Part shown: positions 1-6,754 of the stretch, piece after piece
Position numbering within the stretch: the stretch's first letter is position 1
Layout: each line of letters starts with the position of its first letter
Origin: Cellulomonas humilata
GTDB taxonomy: Bacteria > Actinomycetota > Actinomycetes > Actinomycetales > Cellulomonadaceae
Assembly (NCBI RefSeq): GCF_030814415.1
Contig: NZ_JAUSVB010000003.1
Span: 124,001 to 188,000 of the forward strand
DNA: 64,000 nt
Direction: 5' to 3'
The notes under the pieces: generated by a model
Told to the model about the DNA's origin: nothing
The model's input: the letters and a program-made list of their open reading frames with translations, nothing else
Database searches by the model: none
Program-made: the position numbers and the translations under genes

Positions 1-404
1 TCACCTACATGGTGTTCACGCTGCCTTACGCGATCATCATGATGACAGGGTATTTCAATACCCTTCCCAAAGAGCTGGACGAGGCCGTCAAGGTGGATGG
101 CGCCGGGCCGTTGACCGCATTGTGGCGCATTCTCATGCCCATCTCCGTGCCCGGCCTGGTGTCCGTCGGCGTGTACACGTTCATGATCTGCTGGAACGAG
201 TTCCTGTTCGCACTGACTCTCACCCGGACAGAGGACATGCGGACCGTTCCCATCGGCATCCAGCTCCTCATGGGCCAGCACTCGTACGAATGGAACGAGA
301 TGATGGCGATGAGCATCCTCGGCTGCATTCCTGTTCTCATTCTCTTTCTCTTCTTCCAGCGCTACTTCATCGGGGGAATGACCGCCGGCGCTGTGAAGAT
401 CTAG
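1..404 (+). CDS. Carbohydrate ABC transporter permease, MalG type (3' part)
   Basis: This is the C-terminal part of an inner-membrane sugar ABC permease; the reading frame is open to the left edge (first full codon at base 3), so the start lies outside. The visible 133 residues contain three hydrophobic spans and, between the first two, the EAA cytoplasmic loop (ELDEAVKVDGAG, then PISVPG) that docks on the ATPase. The ending (GGMTAGAVKI) is typical of the MalG/UgpE family. It would import a sugar or sugar derivative. The aldolase gene begins 48 bases downstream on the same strand, so this transporter probably feeds the aldolase/kinase operon that follows. The substrate cannot be read from the sequence. 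Confidence 0.93.
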   Translation, partial: TYMVFTLPYAIIMMTGYFNTLPKELDEAVKVDGAGPLTALWRILMPISVPGLVSVGVYTFMICWNEFLFALTLTRTEDMRTVPIGIQLLMGQHSYEWNEMMAMSILGCIPVLILFLFFQRYFIGGMTAGAVKI

Positions 405-451
405 ACCCCCTCCCTGAGAAACACCCACACACAGGAAAGTTGATACACACC

Positions 452-1318
452 ATGTTGATGAACGGCCGAGACCTGCTCGCGGTGGCGAACGAGAACTACT
501 TCGCCATCCCCGCCTTCAACATCAGCGACTACGCGATGGGCAAGGGGATCTTCGAGATCTCCGAGAAGCTGAACGCCCCGCTGATCGTCGCGATCCACCC
601 CGACGAGGTGTCGCACATCGGGGGCGACGCGCTCGCGGCGCTCATCCAGCGCGCGCACCGCTCGTCCGTCCCGGTCGCCATCCACTGGGACCACGGCGGC
701 ACCTACGAGCAGGTGCTCGAGGCCATCCAGCTCGGGTTCACGTCGGCCATGATCGACGCGTCCATGCAGCCGTTCGAGGACAACGTCGCGATCACCAAGA
801 AGGTCGTCGACACCGCGCACGCCGTCGGCCTGTCGGTCGAGGGCGAGCTGGGCACCATCGGGAAGCTCGACGAGCAGGCCGAGGACGGCGTGCTCGTCGA
901 CCAGATCGCGTTCACCGACCCGGCCGAGGCCGTCGAGTACGTCCAGCGCACCGGCGTGGACAGCCTGGCCATCGCCATCGGTACCGCGCACGGTCTGTAC
1001 CCGAAGCACGTGACCCCGCAGCTGAAGCTCGACCTGCTGCAGCAGATCAAGGCGCTCCTGCCCATCCCGCTGGTGCTGCACGGCGGCTCCGGCAACCCGG
1101 ACGACGAGATCGGCCAGGCGGTCAAGCTCGGCGTGAACAAGATCAACATCTCCAGCGACATCAAGGTCGCGTACCACGACAAGATGCGAGAGGTCCTCGC
1201 GGACACCTCGCTGCGGGAGCCCAACAGCATCCAGCCGCCGTGCATCGAGGCCATGCAGGAGGTCGCCGCGCAGAAGATCCACCTGTTCGACGCCGCCGGC
1301 AAGGCCGACCTGTACTGA
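452..1318 (+). CDS. Class II (zinc) ketose-bisphosphate aldolase
   Basis: A 288-residue class II aldolase of the FbaA/GatY/KbaY family, which reversibly cleaves a ketose (bis)phosphate into DHAP and an aldehyde. Visible hallmarks are HWDHGG (catalytic Asp80, zinc ligand His81), EGELG near 131-135, GTAHG (His180) and LHGGSG (His210), the usual zinc and phosphate sites. The ATG at 452 is chosen because an AGGAAAG ribosome site precedes it; an in-frame ATG two codons later is possible. The long upstream extension of this frame runs through the permease gene and is not real. It is followed 33 bases later by the ADP-dependent kinase, suggesting a kinase-then-aldolase route for an imported sugar. 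Exact sugar specificity is not resolved. Confidence 0.93.
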   Translation: MLMNGRDLLAVANENYFAIPAFNISDYAMGKGIFEISEKLNAPLIVAIHPDEVSHIGGDALAALIQRAHRSSVPVAIHWDHGGTYEQVLEAIQLGFTSAMIDASMQPFEDNVAITKKVVDTAHAVGLSVEGELGTIGKLDEQAEDGVLVDQIAFTDPAEAVEYVQRTGVDSLAIAIGTAHGLYPKHVTPQLKLDLLQQIKALLPIPLVLHGGSGNPDDEIGQAVKLGVNKINISSDIKVAYHDKMREVLADTSLREPNSIQPPCIEAMQEVAAQKIHLFDAAGKADLY

Positions 1319-1351
1319 GCACGTCCTGACGCGAGAGAGGGCAGCCGACCG

Positions 1352-2542
1352 ATGAGCACGAGGTTCGTGCTGGGCATGGGTGGGACGGTCGACTACGAGA
1401 TCCGCTGGGACCCGACGGTGCTCGAGAAGCTCGCTGCGGAGCACGGGATCGGGCCGGAGGACCTCGACCTGGACACCCCGGTCGACTCCGTGCGCGACCT
1501 GGTGCGGAGCCTGCTCGCGTTCGTCCGCGACGGTGTCGGGGGAGAGCGGTTCGTCGCCTCCTCCGACATCGTCGAGGCCGTCGCCGCGCGGTTCGCCAAG
1601 GAGGTCACCCTCGGTGGCACCTGCGTGCGGGCGGCGATCGCGATGGACGTGCTGGGCATCCCGAGCACCATGCACCTGGTCTCGATCGACGACACGGTGC
1701 GGCGGCTGCTCCCGGCCTCGGTCGACTACGTGTCGAGCGCCGTGCAGGACACGCTCGACCCGCACCTGATCGTGCAGTACCCGGCCGGGACCCGCGTCCG
1801 GGTGGGCGACCTCGAGCTGGTGGCGCCGCACCCGAACCGCGTGATCTACGCCAACGACCCGCCGCACCGCGAGCTGCGGATCGCGGCCGACCTGCCCGAC
1901 GCGCTGCGCAGGGCGGACGTCTTCCTGCTCTCGTCGTTCAACGTGATCCAGGACCCGGCCACGCTCGAGTCCCGGCTGGCGCAGGTGCGCGACGCGATGC
2001 GGGTGCTCCCGCCGGACGCGCTCGTGGTGTTCGAGGACGCGGGCTACCACGTGCCGGCCCTGAGCCGCCGCGTGCGTGACGAGATGGTGTGGTCGGCGGA
2101 CATCTACAGCCTCAACGAGGACGAGATGCAGGCCTACCTGGGGCGCACGGTCGACCTGCTCGACGCGCCGACCGTCGCGAAGGCCGTGCGGGAGCTGCAC
2201 GAGGTGGTCCCGGCGCCGACGCTGGTGGTGCACACCAAGTACTGGGCGCTGGCGGTCGGGGCGCGGGCCACCCAGCTCCGGCCGGCGCTCGTCGGCGGGA
2301 TCACGATGGCGAGCACCCGCTACTGGATGGGTGACGGCTTCACGACCGAGGACTACGCCGCGACGGCCTCCCTGACGCCCGGCACGACCGCGCAACGGCT
2401 CGTGTCCGACGTCGCCGACCTGCTCGGACCCGACGCGTGCGTGGTGCCGGCGCTCGACCTGACCGGCGTCGCGACACCGACGACGATCGGGCTCGGCGAC
2501 TCGTTCGTCGGCGGCTTCCTCGCCGCGCTGGACCGGCGATGA
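1352..2542 (+). CDS. ADP-dependent phosphofructokinase/glucokinase family kinase
   Basis: A 396-residue member of the ADP-specific PFK/glucokinase family (ribokinase fold), best known from archaea. Supporting motifs are the N-terminal LGMGGTVDYEI, a GGTCVRAAIAM segment near 88-98, SSFNVIQDP, the family signature SLNEDEM at 253-259, VHTKYWAL, and the C-terminal GLGDSFVGGF with the likely catalytic base Asp383. It would use ADP to phosphorylate a sugar phosphate that the neighbouring aldolase then splits. It overlaps the next gene by an ATGA, so translation is probably coupled. Bacterial members are uncommon and their substrates are poorly defined. Phosphate-donor use is inferred from family membership, not seen. 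Confidence 0.85.
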   Translation: MSTRFVLGMGGTVDYEIRWDPTVLEKLAAEHGIGPEDLDLDTPVDSVRDLVRSLLAFVRDGVGGERFVASSDIVEAVAARFAKEVTLGGTCVRAAIAMDVLGIPSTMHLVSIDDTVRRLLPASVDYVSSAVQDTLDPHLIVQYPAGTRVRVGDLELVAPHPNRVIYANDPPHRELRIAADLPDALRRADVFLLSSFNVIQDPATLESRLAQVRDAMRVLPPDALVVFEDAGYHVPALSRRVRDEMVWSADIYSLNEDEMQAYLGRTVDLLDAPTVAKAVRELHEVVPAPTLVVHTKYWALAVGARATQLRPALVGGITMASTRYWMGDGFTTEDYAATASLTPGTTAQRLVSDVADLLGPDACVVPALDLTGVATPTTIGLGDSFVGGFLAALDRR

Positions 2543-3483
2543 CGACCTGGGGCGAGCTCACCGACGACGGTCGGGTCTCCCAGCCCGAGGCGCTCGCGAG
2601 CGTCGACGTGCGCGGGGGCGTGATCGCCGTCCGCCTGGCCGGAGGGCTCGCGTTCGACGTCCTGCCGGACCGGGGGCTGGACCTCGGAGCGACGTGGTGG
2701 GGGTCGACGCCCGTCGCGTGGCGGTCCCCGAACCCGGCCGACCCGGGCCCCGGGCGCGACTGGGAGTCGCGGTTCCTCGGCGGGCTCCTGGCCACGTGCG
2801 GTCCCGACAACATCGGCGAGCCGCGCGGCTCGTCGGGTCAGCACGGCACCCACCACCTGACCCCCGCGGTCGACGTGCGCTGGTCGCGCGAGCGGGTGGC
2901 CGACACCTGGCAGGTGCGCGTGACGGGCACGGTCGCGCACACCTCGCTGGGTGGCCCCCGCATCCTCGTCGAGCGGTCGGTGGTGGCGTCCACGGGCACG
3001 TCGGCCGTCGAGGTCAGTGACGTCGTGCGCAACGTCGGCGACCAGCCCGTCGGCGTCCCGCTGCTCTACCACGTCAACCTCGGCGCACCCTTCCTGCGGC
3101 CGGGTGCACGCCTGGACGTGGATGCCGACGAGTGGGCCGTCCGGGAGCCGCTCCCGGCGGACCGCCACCCGTTGGTCACCCCGGAGCCCGCACCCGGCCT
3201 CGCCCCCGTGGTCGCCGAACACCTCGGCGTGCGGGGCGCGCGGGCCACCCTCGTCGGTGACGAGCAGTTCCCCGACCTCGTCGTGACCTGGACCGGCGAC
3301 ACCCTGCCCCGGCTCTGTACCTGGAGCTGGCCGGCGAGCAACGCGTACGTGCTCGGCGTCGAACCCACCAACGCCCCGCTGTTCGGCCCGGAGCGGGACC
3401 TGCCGCACGCGGGCGCGCCGGTCCTCGAGCCCGGCGCTACCTGGCGCACGGGCGTCCGCATCGCCGTCGAAGGGCTTACATGA
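2539..3483 (+). CDS. Aldose 1-epimerase-like protein (DUF4432)
   Basis: A 314-residue protein of the DUF4432 group of galactose-mutarotase-like beta-sandwich proteins. Visible features are the DVLPDRGLDLG segment near residues 40-50, the GLLATCGPDNIGEP block around 82-95, GTHHLTP, LLYHVNLGAPFL near 175-186 and EPTNAPLF towards the end, all typical of sugar epimerases that bind the pyranose with His/Glu residues. The start is the ATG overlapping the kinase stop (ATGA), and the stop overlaps the next gene the same way. In this operon it probably interconverts anomers of the imported sugar or its phosphate. Activity of DUF4432 proteins is largely untested, so the epimerase call is from fold only. 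Confidence 0.82.
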   Translation: MTTWGELTDDGRVSQPEALASVDVRGGVIAVRLAGGLAFDVLPDRGLDLGATWWGSTPVAWRSPNPADPGPGRDWESRFLGGLLATCGPDNIGEPRGSSGQHGTHHLTPAVDVRWSRERVADTWQVRVTGTVAHTSLGGPRILVERSVVASTGTSAVEVSDVVRNVGDQPVGVPLLYHVNLGAPFLRPGARLDVDADEWAVREPLPADRHPLVTPEPAPGLAPVVAEHLGVRGARATLVGDEQFPDLVVTWTGDTLPRLCTWSWPASNAYVLGVEPTNAPLFGPERDLPHAGAPVLEPGATWRTGVRIAVEGLT

Positions 3484-4466
3484 GACCGCTGTTCCTGCCC
3501 GCCAACCAGCCCGCCGACAGGTTCTACGCGGGAGGTCGGCAGATCGCCGACCTGCGCGGGACCGGGCCGGCGGCGAGCCACGAGCCCGAGGACTGGGTGG
3601 GTTCGGCCACGTCGGTGTTCGGGCACGAGCCCGTCGGGCTGACCGTGCTGCCCGACGGCCGGCTGCTCCGCGACGCGATCGACGCCGACCCGGTCGCGTG
3701 GCTCGGCGCCGAGCACGTCGCCGCCTACGGCTCCGACCCCGAGCTGCTGGTCAAGCTGCTGGACGCGGGCCAGCGCCTGCCCGTGCACGCCCACCCCGCC
3801 GTCCCGTTCGCCGCCGAGCACCTGGGTCTGGCGCACGGCAAGACCGAGGCATGGGTGGTGCTCGAGCCCGCCCGGGTGCACCTCGGGTTCACGCGGGACA
3901 TCGGCGTCGACGAGCTGGCCGGCTGGGTGCGGACGCAGGACACCGGCGCGATGCTCGGCGCCATGCACGTCCTCGACCTCGCCGCCGGCGACGCCGTCCT
4001 GGTCCCCGCCGGGCTCCCGCACGCGATCGGGCACGGCGCGCTCGTCGTCGAGCTGCAGGAGCCGACCGACCTGTCGATCCTGCTGGAGTGGTCCGGGTTC
4101 CCGATCGACGGGGTCGCCGACGGGCACCTGGGCCTCGGGTTCGACGTCGCGCTCGCGGCCGTCGACCGTCGTGGCTGGTCCGCCGACGAGATCGCGCGTC
4201 TGCGCGGCGCGACCGCGGCGTCGTCGGGGGACCTGCTGCCCGACGCGGCGGCGTTCTTCCGCGTGGAGCGGTGGACCGGTCCGCGGGAGCTCGACGCGGG
4301 CCTCGCGGTGCTCGTCGTGGTCGACGGTGCAGGCACGCTCGTCGCCGACGGCGAGTCCTTGCCGCTGCGTCGGGGACACACGGTGCTCCTGCCCGCTGTT
4401 GCCGGGCCGGTCACGCTCGAGGGGGACGACCTCCAGGTCGTCGTCTGCCGCCCGCCCCGTCCGTAG
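3480..4466 (+). CDS. manA: Class I mannose-6-phosphate isomerase-like protein
   Basis: A 328-residue cupin-fold phosphomannose isomerase relative (aldose-ketose isomerisation, cytoplasmic). The N-terminal half carries the zinc site: LPVHAHPAVPF near 100-110 and HGKTEAWVVL near 118-127, followed by the second cupin motif with VPAGLPHAIGHGA around 177-190. It is shorter than classical ManA (about 390-420), matching the short ManA-like proteins of sugar operons. The start overlaps the epimerase stop (ATGA). It closes the operon; about 107 bases separate it from the phosphatase gene. It likely supplies the ketose form for the kinase and aldolase. Whether mannose-6-phosphate itself is the substrate is unknown. 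Confidence 0.85.
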   Translation: MRPLFLPANQPADRFYAGGRQIADLRGTGPAASHEPEDWVGSATSVFGHEPVGLTVLPDGRLLRDAIDADPVAWLGAEHVAAYGSDPELLVKLLDAGQRLPVHAHPAVPFAAEHLGLAHGKTEAWVVLEPARVHLGFTRDIGVDELAGWVRTQDTGAMLGAMHVLDLAAGDAVLVPAGLPHAIGHGALVVELQEPTDLSILLEWSGFPIDGVADGHLGLGFDVALAAVDRRGWSADEIARLRGATAASSGDLLPDAAAFFRVERWTGPRELDAGLAVLVVVDGAGTLVADGESLPLRRGHTVLLPAVAGPVTLEGDDLQVVVCRPPRP

Positions 4467-4573
4467 GTCCCGGCTCGGGATGCGCGTTCACCCGAACGGT
4501 CGAACCATGGACGGCACGGTCGAGAAGCGCGCCGACGTCGAGAGGGACAACGAAGTCCGAGGGACGGCACACG

Positions 4574-5878
4574 ATGCTCAACTCACGACACACATGGTTA
4601 GGAGCCGGCAGCGTTGCCGTGCTCGCAGCAGCTGGGCTCACGACGACCGGGATCGCCGGGGGCGGTGACGGCCGGGACAACGGGCAAGGTGGCGGCCGGG
4701 CCGTCGCCAAGAACGTGATCTTCATGGTGGGCGACGGCCTGAGCATCGCGGCCCGGGACGCCACCCGGCTGGCGACCGTCGGCAAGGACGGGCAGCTGCA
4801 GATGGACTCGCTGCGGTACGCCGGCTGGACCTACACCGACTCGCTGGACCCCGAGGAGGCCGTCACCGACTCGGCCGCCGCCGCCACGGCGTTCGCCACC
4901 GGGTTCCGCACGTACAACGGGGCCGTCTCGGTCGACGTGAACGGCAACGCGGTGAAGACGCTCCTGGAGCACGCGAGGGACCTGCGCAAGGCGACCGGGC
5001 TTGTCACGACGGCCCAGGTCACGGACGCGACGCCCGCCGCGTTCGGCTCCCACGTCCCCGACCGGGGCACGCAGACCGAGATCGCCCGGCAGTTCCTCGA
5101 GGAGACCAAGCCCGACGTCATCCTCGGCGGCGGCGAGGACTGGTGGTACCCCGTGGGCGACCCGGGTGCGTACCCGGACGACCCCGCCGACCCGCGGCCC
5201 GAGGTCAGCAAGAGCACGATCGGGAACCTCGTCGAGCTGGCCGAGGGGCAGGGCTACGACTACGTCAGCACCCCCGACGAGCTCGCCGCTACCCGGTCCG
5301 ACAAGGTGCTCGGGCTGTTCGCCAACGAGGAGATGTTCGAGCAGTTCCCGGAGGGCCAGGGCGACGAGTACGCGCCCGTGGTCCCGCTCACGACGATGAC
5401 CGCGAAGGCGCTCGACGTCCTCTCGCGCGACCGGCAGGGGTTCTTCCTCCTGGTCGAGGAGGAGGCCATCGACGAGTTCGCGCACGCCAACAACGCCGAG
5501 CGCACTATCCAGGCCGGACAGGCGCTGGACGCGACAGTGGCGCTGGTGCGGGAGTACGTCGCGAAGCACCCCGACACCCTGGTGGTCATCGTCGGTGACC
5601 ACGAGACGGGTGGGCTGGCGATCGAGAACGTCTCCGGCGCCGACGAGTCCGGCGATCCCGCCAGCACCGACCCCGCCGTCGTGCAGAGCCTCGAGGACGG
5701 GCCGTTCCCGATCGCGAACAGCGACCTGGAGTTCACGGTCGACTGGACGACCGGGAGGCACACCGGTGCGGCGACGCCGTTGACGGCCGAGGGCCCACGG
5801 GCCGAGCGGCTGGCGCGGGCGCAGGACAACACGGACGTGTTCACGGTGGTCCTGGACGCGATGCGCGGCAAGCGCTGA
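4574..5878 (+). CDS. Secreted alkaline phosphatase (PhoA superfamily)
   Basis: A 434-residue exported metal-dependent phosphomonoesterase. Residues 1-30 form a signal peptide (short basic start, hydrophobic AGSVAVLAAAGLTTTGIAG). Catalytic signatures are FMVGDG near 50 (metal Asp), VTDSAAAATA with nucleophile Ser100, LVEEEAIDEFAHANN (metal ligands Glu297, Asp300, His304), VGDHETGG (Asp342, His343) and TGRHTG (His396). The ATG at 4574 is picked because it opens the signal peptide; the frame continues far upstream only as a shadow of the manA-like gene. It would release phosphate outside the cell. A strong hairpin follows 6 bases after the stop. Confidence 0.93.
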   Translation: MLNSRHTWLGAGSVAVLAAAGLTTTGIAGGGDGRDNGQGGGRAVAKNVIFMVGDGLSIAARDATRLATVGKDGQLQMDSLRYAGWTYTDSLDPEEAVTDSAAAATAFATGFRTYNGAVSVDVNGNAVKTLLEHARDLRKATGLVTTAQVTDATPAAFGSHVPDRGTQTEIARQFLEETKPDVILGGGEDWWYPVGDPGAYPDDPADPRPEVSKSTIGNLVELAEGQGYDYVSTPDELAATRSDKVLGLFANEEMFEQFPEGQGDEYAPVVPLTTMTAKALDVLSRDRQGFFLLVEEEAIDEFAHANNAERTIQAGQALDATVALVREYVAKHPDTLVVIVGDHETGGLAIENVSGADESGDPASTDPAVVQSLEDGPFPIANSDLEFTVDWTTGRHTGAATPLTAEGPRAERLARAQDNTDVFTVVLDAMRGKR

Positions 5879-5883
5879 GAGGG

Positions 5884-5921
5884 GACGAGGGCGGCTGCGC
5901 GGATGCGCAGCCGCCCTCGTC
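5884..5921. terminator. Bidirectional hairpin terminator
   Basis: Perfect 17-bp inverted repeat (5884-5900 with 5905-5921) around a GGAT loop, lying between the convergent alkaline phosphatase and alpha/beta hydrolase genes. No U-run is present, as is common in GC-rich actinobacteria. Its position 6 bases from one stop and 9 from the other supports termination in both directions. Confidence 0.85.
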
Positions 5922-5929
5922 GTCGGCGC

Positions 5930-6754
5930 TCAGGAGCGGATGAACTCCAGGATGTCGGCGTTGATCGTCGCGGCCTCCGTGGTCGGCATCCCGTGCGGGA
6001 ACCCGGCGTACGTCTTCAGCGTGCCGTTCTGCAGCAGCTCGGCCGACAGGGGGCCGGAGTCGGCGTAGGGGACCACCTGGTCGTCGTCGCCGTGCATGAC
6101 GAGCACGGGGACGGTGATCTTCTTCAGGTCCTCCGTGAAGTCGGTCTGGGAGAACGCGACGATGCCGTCGTAGTGCGCCTTCGCGCCGCCCATCATCCCC
6201 TGGCGCCACCAGTTCTCGATGATCGCCTCGGAGGGCTCGCGGCCCGGGCGGTTGTACCCGTAGAACGCGGTGGACGGCAGGTCGCGGTAGAAGTTCGACC
6301 GGTTGGTGGCCACCTGCTCCTGCAGCCCGTCGAACACGCTCTTCGGCAGGCCGCCGGGGTTGGCGTTGGTCTGCACCATGATCGGCGGGACGGCGGCGAT
6401 GAGCACGGCCTTGGCGACGCGGCTCTCACCGTGCCGGGCGATGTAGTGCACGACCTCGCCGCCACCGGTCGAGTGCCCGATGTGGACGGCGTCGTGCAGG
6501 TTCAGGTGCTCGGTGAGCGCCGCCAGGTCGTCGGCGTAGTGGTCCATGTCGTGGCCGTCGCTCGTCTGCGTGGACCGCCCGTGGCCGCGGCGGTCGTGCG
6601 CGATGACGCGGTAGCCGTGCTGGAGGAAGAACAGCAGCTGGGTGTCCCAGTCGTCGGCCGACAGCGGCCAGCCGTGGCTGAACACGAGCGGCTGACCCGA
6701 GCCCCAGTCCTTGTAGAAGATCTCCGTGCCGTCCGTCGTGGTGATGGTGCCCAT
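5930..6754 (-). CDS. Alpha/beta hydrolase, non-heme chloroperoxidase-like
   Basis: A 274-residue alpha/beta-hydrolase fold enzyme of the cofactor-free haloperoxidase/esterase group. Visible are the oxyanion segment [13 protein letters not shown] near 26-37, HDRRGHGRS at 53-61, nucleophile elbow GHSTGGG with Ser95, the acid in [10 protein letters not shown] (about 223-231) and the catalytic His in FPHGMP near 253. The combination W-P-L-S-A-D-D-W is characteristic of the non-heme chloroperoxidase family, whose members act as esterases or perhydrolases. It is a monocistronic minus-strand gene, convergent with the phosphatase. The physiological substrate is unknown. Confidence 0.9.

Follow-up and report, generated by a model that had tools for sequence, protein, structure and literature searches.

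The stretch of DNA analysed here (the window) comprises 64,000 nucleotides of the 4.64 Mb genome of Cellulomonas humilata, bases 124001-188000 of contig C3 (NZ_JAUSVB010000003.1), and opens with the enzyme genes of an importer-linked operon in which a class II aldolase gene is followed by a gene for a sugar kinase of the ADP-dependent type. Five genes lie on the forward strand at the positions reported by a first-pass annotation of this DNA. The one at the 5' edge is the 3' part of the second CUT1-type ATP-binding cassette (ABC) permease gene of the operon (1..404; PF00528, 55.2 bits), which starts before the window and is complete at L002:11520-12404. It is followed by the class II aldolase (452..1318; PF01116, F_bP_aldolase, 299.8 bits, cut-off 25.5), the kinase (1352..2542; PF04587, ADP_PFK_GK, 76.9 bits, cut-off 27), a mutarotase-like DUF4432 protein (2539..3483; PF14486, 185.7 bits, cut-off 32.5) and a ManA-like protein of the type I phosphomannose isomerase (PMI) fold (3480..4466; PF21621 cupin domain, 37.6 bits, cut-off 27). 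Against TIGR00218 the ManA-like protein scored 62.8 bits, below the cut-off of 116.2. The annotation had described the genes as joined by ATGA overlaps, which occur at two of the four operon junctions in the window (kinase/DUF4432 and DUF4432/ManA-like), while permease and aldolase are separated by 47 bp and aldolase and kinase by 33 bp. On the 5' side of the window the operon continues with a CUT1 substrate-binding protein (SBP; gene start near L002:9185-9197) and the two permeases. A DeoR-family regulator gene is transcribed divergently, on the strand opposite to the importer and enzyme genes. The kinase is the single PF04587 match in the whole genome.

Sugar kinases that use ADP take part in glycolysis in archaea and animals, and the family is mostly archaeal. 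Their occurrence in bacteria has been noted before (PMC7948494), and the sections consulted link the bacterial ADP-type kinases to no bacterial pathway. Our open-access literature search found no description of a PF04587 operon in actinobacteria, although one query was too unspecific to say much, and DUF4432 turned up there only in papers listed under other topics.

A scan of a genome collection of 84,980 species gave 345 stretches encoding relatives, and the conservation of the operon was analysed in the best 80; these represent the nearest part of the family and, by their titles and tree labels, all belong to Actinomycetota. Within the same taxonomic family, 40 of 221 genomes gave a kinase match at E ≤ 1e-5, a few of the matches being fragments. 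At E ≤ 1e-10 only the window's own genome was matched among 396 sampled across the phylum, and PF04587 was found in 33 of 396 genomes sampled across the order. In all 80 loci the gene immediately before the kinase encodes an aldolase, with a gap of -4 to 150 bp; the count covers these loci and not 16 extra kinases from the order sample, a contig edge truncates four of the aldolase genes, and the aldolase of L118 was aligned by BLAST only over residues 149-288. This pairing exceeds chance. In the 71 loci whose upstream DNA exceeds 7 kb, regulator, SBP and both permeases occur in the same order in 70, and both order and strands of the core are kept in 69; the exceptions are L118, where importer and regulator were not found, and L068, where the regulator lies on the other strand.

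Of the order aldolase-kinase-DUF4432-ManA seen in the window, the first two members are kept together with the importer core, and the other two are accessory. The DUF4432 gene occurs in 18/80 loci and the PMI-like gene in 46/80 (43 directly downstream, three elsewhere on the opposite strand). In a kinase tree of 93 rows the labels MPI and MPI+DUF4432 need five changes each, and the starred branches force at least two and at least three of these, so the accessory genes were apparently gained and lost, with aldolase and kinase remaining together. The tree holds no archaeal rows, and the link to archaeal members comes from profile and fold scores. The gene that comes first after the kinase or isomerase mostly differs between loci.

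Assignment of the kinase to the ADP_PFK_GK family, made earlier from its SLNEDE and GLGDS motifs, held up. The N-E-D-E of the first motif corresponds to residues 255-258 (window 2114-2125) and the G-L-G-D of the second to residues 380-383 (window 2489-2500). An AlphaFold model of the kinase had a predicted local distance difference test score (pLDDT) of 92.6. When this model was used as a Foldseek query, rows 1-22 were ADP-dependent kinases, and the VIA-align comparison returned such kinases in rows 1-17 with Z scores from 37.9 (5o0j) to 28.6; the first other kinase, a Rhizobium etli protein described as a probable sugar kinase, followed with Z 24.0. The predicted structure thus has the fold of the ADP-dependent family, in common with the Thermococcus litoralis and Pyrococcus furiosus glucokinases, the P. 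horikoshii phosphofructokinase, the Methanocaldococcus jannaschii phosphofructokinase/glucokinase and AncMsPFK. Identity to the solved ADP kinases is 16-20%, and the bacterial enzyme is shorter (396 residues versus 432-488 in those chains). It also differs from these references in its genetic setting, next to an aldolase gene in a bacterial operon that includes an importer.

Residues were tallied over 97 bacterial kinases (the window kinase, those of the 80 loci and the 16 from the order sample), with AncMsPFK positions transferred through HMMER alignments to solved ADP kinases. The nucleotide-binding and catalytic residues R163, E228, N255, E258 and H294 are kept in 97/97 and D383 in 96/97, with one gap. 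The family marks are likewise present: the GXGD base in 96/97 (one gap), and the N/DXXE motif and the Arg206 equivalent in 97/97; the His360 equivalent is also shared with the characterised members. Of the HXE motif, the Glu is kept in 97/97 and the His in none. According to PMC7948494, R206, E282, D310/E313, H360 and S361 have nucleotide and metal roles in AncMsPFK, and the characterised relatives described in the literature consulted use ADP. From the fold and these residues we read ADP as the probable phosphoryl donor. It is unlikely, in our judgement, that a kinase acting in the pathway proposed below has turned ATP-dependent. The low identity and shorter chain would be compatible with such a switch, as would the loss of the His of HXE and of the N32 equivalent, which is Gly in 95 and Gln in two of the 97 sequences and Asn in none. 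Against it, the equivalents of AncMsPFK residues in contact with ADP and Mg (R163, H294-T/S295, E228 and N255/E258; PMC7948494) are retained, and the fold scores favour ADP-dependent kinases (Z 38) over the other kinase (Z 24).

In the sugar site of the kinase, the glucokinase-type residues E65 and H138 (codon at window 1763-1765) are conserved in 97/97, as are the D36 and E90 equivalents. The glucose site of ADP-glucokinases comprises a Glu and a His (PMC7948494). It also includes a Gln after the sugar-site GG. Such a Gln is found within six residues of the GG in 0/97 sequences; a one-residue gap in the HMMER alignment with archaeal enzymes makes it unsure which residue faces their Gln. The substrate is therefore probably a sugar other than glucose. 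In AncMsPFK the phosphate of fructose 6-phosphate is contacted by N32, N34, E90, N181, K179 and Q244; K179, N181 and R212 are conserved among phosphofructokinases and bifunctional enzymes and E90 among glucokinases and bifunctional enzymes, and the T. litoralis glucokinase has a His at the N181 position (PMC7948494). Of the phosphate contacts N32, N34, K179 and N181 and the phosphofructokinase-conserved R212, the window-type kinases have lost most. Apart from the N32 change, the N34 equivalent is Thr in 74, Cys in 16, Asn in six and Ser in one, the K179 equivalent is never Lys, and in all 97 the N181 equivalent is His and that of R212 is Asp. Since most contacts to the phosphate have been lost, the kinase substrate probably carries no phosphate.

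A corresponding change was observed in the aldolase. When 81 operon aldolases were aligned with FbaA, GatY, KbaY and YdjI of Escherichia coli, the PF01116 metal and catalytic positions shared with FbaA, GatY and KbaY were retained in 79-81 of the 81 sequences. The DPR Arg of these three enzymes, the mark of class II fructose- and tagatose-bisphosphate aldolases, is replaced in 81/81, by Asn in 68, Leu in 11 and Asp in two; in the window aldolase the position is occupied by N258 (codon 1223-1225). We take this residue to be Arg331 of FbaA with a role in binding the C6 phosphate, which the literature searched did not confirm. It is also present in the fructose-bisphosphate (FBP) aldolase chains 7nc7, 4to8, 2fjk and 1rv8, and missing from YdjI and from chains 8q57 and 8q58. 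The PDB titles of the last two are KbaY and ketose-bisphosphate aldolase, and these chains are presumably SqiA, that is, class II sulfofructose-1-phosphate aldolases. The nearest curated models are the uncharacterised subfamily PRK08185 (385.7 bits) and then FBP aldolases.

The PMI-like protein follows the same pattern. Its model (pLDDT 93.7) matched type I PMIs with Z scores of 33.1 (1zx5) to 29.2, the next non-PMI cupin scoring 15.8. The fold, metal site, Lys86 and Lys132 are shared with ManA of E. coli, Salmonella and Bacillus subtilis, and the equivalents of K86, H99, K132, E134, H255 and E264 are kept in 47/47 sequences. Unlike these enzymes, all 47 have Leu for Arg274, Pro for Ser95 and His for Gln97; in the window protein Leu201 (codon 4080-4082) stands at the Arg274 position. 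Arg274 and Arg304 are presumably phosphate-site residues, for which the literature search gave no confirmation; an R274A mutant of Salmonella PMI exists as a PDB entry title, which by itself does not show the role of the residue.

The earlier set of isomerase, epimerase, kinase and aldolase stands except for the epimerase. The DUF4432 protein matches 3ty1, a 'hypothetical aldose 1-epimerase', at E 1.6e-7, and H178 and E275, presumably a catalytic His/Glu pair as in mutarotases, are invariant in 15/15 aligned members. A mutarotase-like role thus fits the protein better than carbon epimerisation.

In two Propionibacteriaceae loci the slot after the kinase is filled differently, by an AGE/YihS-type gene that overlaps the kinase 3' end (L121:9212-10438 and L127:1810-3036). 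The L121 protein scored 422 bits against the D-mannose isomerase model NF051846 (below its cut-off of 600) and matched YihS (2rgk) at E 2e-101, and the L127 copy starts with nearly identical residues. Two unrelated isomerase families, one of them known to act on free sugars, therefore fill the same slot, which argues for isomerisation before phosphorylation. Among the neighbours scanned, which were not all of them, isomerase-like genes were of the AGE and PF01261 types only. A PF01261 gene for a xylose-isomerase-like triosephosphate isomerase (TIM) barrel protein lies downstream of the kinase in two Promicromonospora (L096:9415-10164 and L103:9296-10030).

These observations lead us to favour, by a modest degree, a catabolic operon for a free sugar that would be phosphorylated once, at C1, by the PF04587 kinase and then split by the aldolase. 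Gene content, gene order, folds and the loss of phosphate contacts come from sequences and models; from these we infer regulation, use of ADP, the C1 position, direction and substrate. The DeoR-type regulator would control the CUT1 ABC importer and make the operon inducible, and the importer would bring in the unphosphorylated sugar. In the version encoded in the window, a free aldose would be mutarotated by the DUF4432 protein and converted to the ketose by the PMI-type protein that has no Arg274 equivalent. The kinase would then phosphorylate the hydroxyl group beside the keto group, most likely with conversion of ADP to AMP, and the aldolase would cleave the ketose 1-phosphate to dihydroxyacetone phosphate (DHAP) and an unphosphorylated aldehyde. 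The first-pass annotation had placed the kinase second, acting on a sugar phosphate made by an unknown first kinase. No missing first kinase is needed: with most phosphate contacts gone from the kinase, the DPR Arg from the aldolase and the Arg274 equivalent from the isomerase, one kinase for the free ketose would suffice. Overall, the earlier interpretation is partly supported.

Several observations weigh against the single-phosphorylation pathway. All genes of the window operon could be assigned and none encodes an enzyme for the aldehyde product. The N34 equivalent is still Asn in 6/97 kinases. In the aldolase, 80/81 operon sequences share an Arg (R255, codon 1214-1216) that none of the four E. 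coli references has; this residue might hold a different anionic group at the distal end of the substrate. Furthermore, 32/80 loci have neither a DUF4432 nor a PMI-like gene in the available DNA, so the isomerase step is not universal. Three of these 32 reach a contig edge soon past the kinase, two carry the AGE gene and two the PF01261 gene. Strains with no mutarotase and isomerase genes nearby may take up the ketose directly or rely on an isomerase gene at another place in the genome.

As to the sugar, the two isomerase types seen in the slot lead us to guess at a manno-configured aldose (D-mannose giving D-fructose, or D-lyxose giving D-xylulose). The nearest solved relatives of the SBP are acarbose and maltose binders plus a mixture of others, so the imported sugar cannot be named from this protein. 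A search for operator words of 8-10 nucleotides in 71 regulator-SBP gaps gave a best word common to at most 23/71, and an Rfam scan of window positions 1-6500 gave nothing at the gathering threshold.

A paralogous module provides an internal control. It occurs in five genomes from a different family of the same order (loci L138-L142; genomes G690, G653, G703, G832 and G860). In all five, a second aldolase and a second PF04587 kinase are accompanied by an SBP, importer genes and a short-chain dehydrogenase/reductase. A regulator was called in four of the five, and a sulfatase lies on the regulator side in four; that of L141 scored 309.5 bits with the NCBIfam arylsulfatase model, under the cut-off of 481. 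The second kinase, present in 5/396 order genomes, is only 24-26% identical to the window kinase, and the H138 and D169 columns are not conserved between the two types in the alignment. The second aldolase carries the DPR Arg in 5/5. In three of the five loci the same operon also contains a window-type kinase, next to an aldolase lacking the Arg. The types of kinase and aldolase thus co-vary, as expected if each kinase makes the substrate of the neighbouring aldolase. We tentatively propose that the window kinase is an ADP-dependent ketose 1-kinase working with a monophosphate-specific aldolase, and that the sister module may do likewise for a substrate whose distal end is charged.

The remaining alternatives place the phosphate or the substrate elsewhere. 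A pathway in which a separate first kinase makes a sugar monophosphate, the PF04587 enzyme phosphorylates it again as an ADP-phosphofructokinase would, and a bisphosphate aldolase follows, is suggested by the name of the PF04587 family, by the FBP aldolase models that come next after PRK08185, by the Lys86 and Lys132 equivalents of the PMI-like protein and by the six kinases with Asn at the N34 position. We regard it as improbable: the phosphate contacts of the kinase are mostly lost, the marker Arg is gone from both aldolase and isomerase, the Arg-bearing aldolase belongs to a separate module, and a profile built from 25 kinase homologues scored 63.2 bits with the best glucokinase (1ua4) and 38.2 bits with the best phosphofructokinase (1u2x).

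The proposed C1 phosphorylation and cleavage resemble the sulfoglycolytic Embden-Meyerhof-Parnas (sulfo-EMP) pathway (YihR/YihS/YihV/YihT; SqvD/SqiK/SqiA), with its order of mutarotase, free-sugar isomerase, C1 kinase and DHAP-forming aldolase. That the operon itself degrades a sulfosugar through sulfofructose 1-phosphate appears quite improbable. In its favour, the presumed SqiA chains also have no DPR Arg, R255 is invariant, a YihS-type isomerase occurs in two loci, and SmoF is among the proteins that the SBP resembles, in sixth place with 56 bits. Unlike the sulfo-EMP systems, the window operon has a PF04587 kinase and a PMI-fold isomerase, and its genes include no sulfolactaldehyde reductase or dehydrogenase and no sulfoquinovosidase, enzymes for which the other loci were not scanned. 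A PMI-like gene takes the place of YihS in 46/80 loci. The steps are laid out as described in PMC12890257 and PMC8873060, but actinobacterial sulfo-EMP has been reported with YihS/YihV/YihT-type genes.

An ADP-glucokinase-like enzyme that feeds an aldose 6-phosphate into normal glycolysis, with the aldolase serving another compound of the regulon, would fit the glucokinase-type E65 and H138 but is very improbable given that the aldolase gene adjoins the kinase gene in 80/80 loci, that the two types co-vary in the paralogous module and that Gln after GG occurs in 0/97.

The YdjH/YdjI system of E. coli is a further relative of the proposed pathway, since it too combines one kinase with a class II aldolase without DPR Arg. 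YdjH is presumably a PfkB-type ATP kinase. The transporter and gene set are different, the aldolase is 36% identical, and YdjH and YdjI are annotated in NC_000913.3 as octuluronate kinase and octuluronate-1-phosphate aldolase. An EMP-like split after a single C1 phosphorylation is thus of a known kind, and the kinase family is what is unusual for it. If the proposal is correct, a glucokinase-like pocket would be combined with phosphofructokinase-like C1 chemistry, a further specificity of the PF04587 family. It would also mean that these bacteria have an ADP-driven upper glycolysis in which the sugar is activated by one ADP and no ATP. The conserved transporter-linked operon with its dedicated aldolase offers a testable physiological role for the bacterial kinases and a predicted new substrate specificity, and, because the hosts are mesophilic soil bacteria and mostly in culture, a setting in which to ask why ADP rather than ATP would be spent on activating the sugar.

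Two neighbouring genes were noted in addition. An alkaline phosphatase gene (4574-5878; PF00245, 232.5 bits) starts 107 bp past the operon end. It is present in 6/80 related loci, Cellulomonas every time, and was left out of the system because of this narrow distribution. In one Cellulomonas strain an alpha-galactosidase-type gene (Melibiase_2; GH27) follows the isomerase gene at L054:11207-12514.

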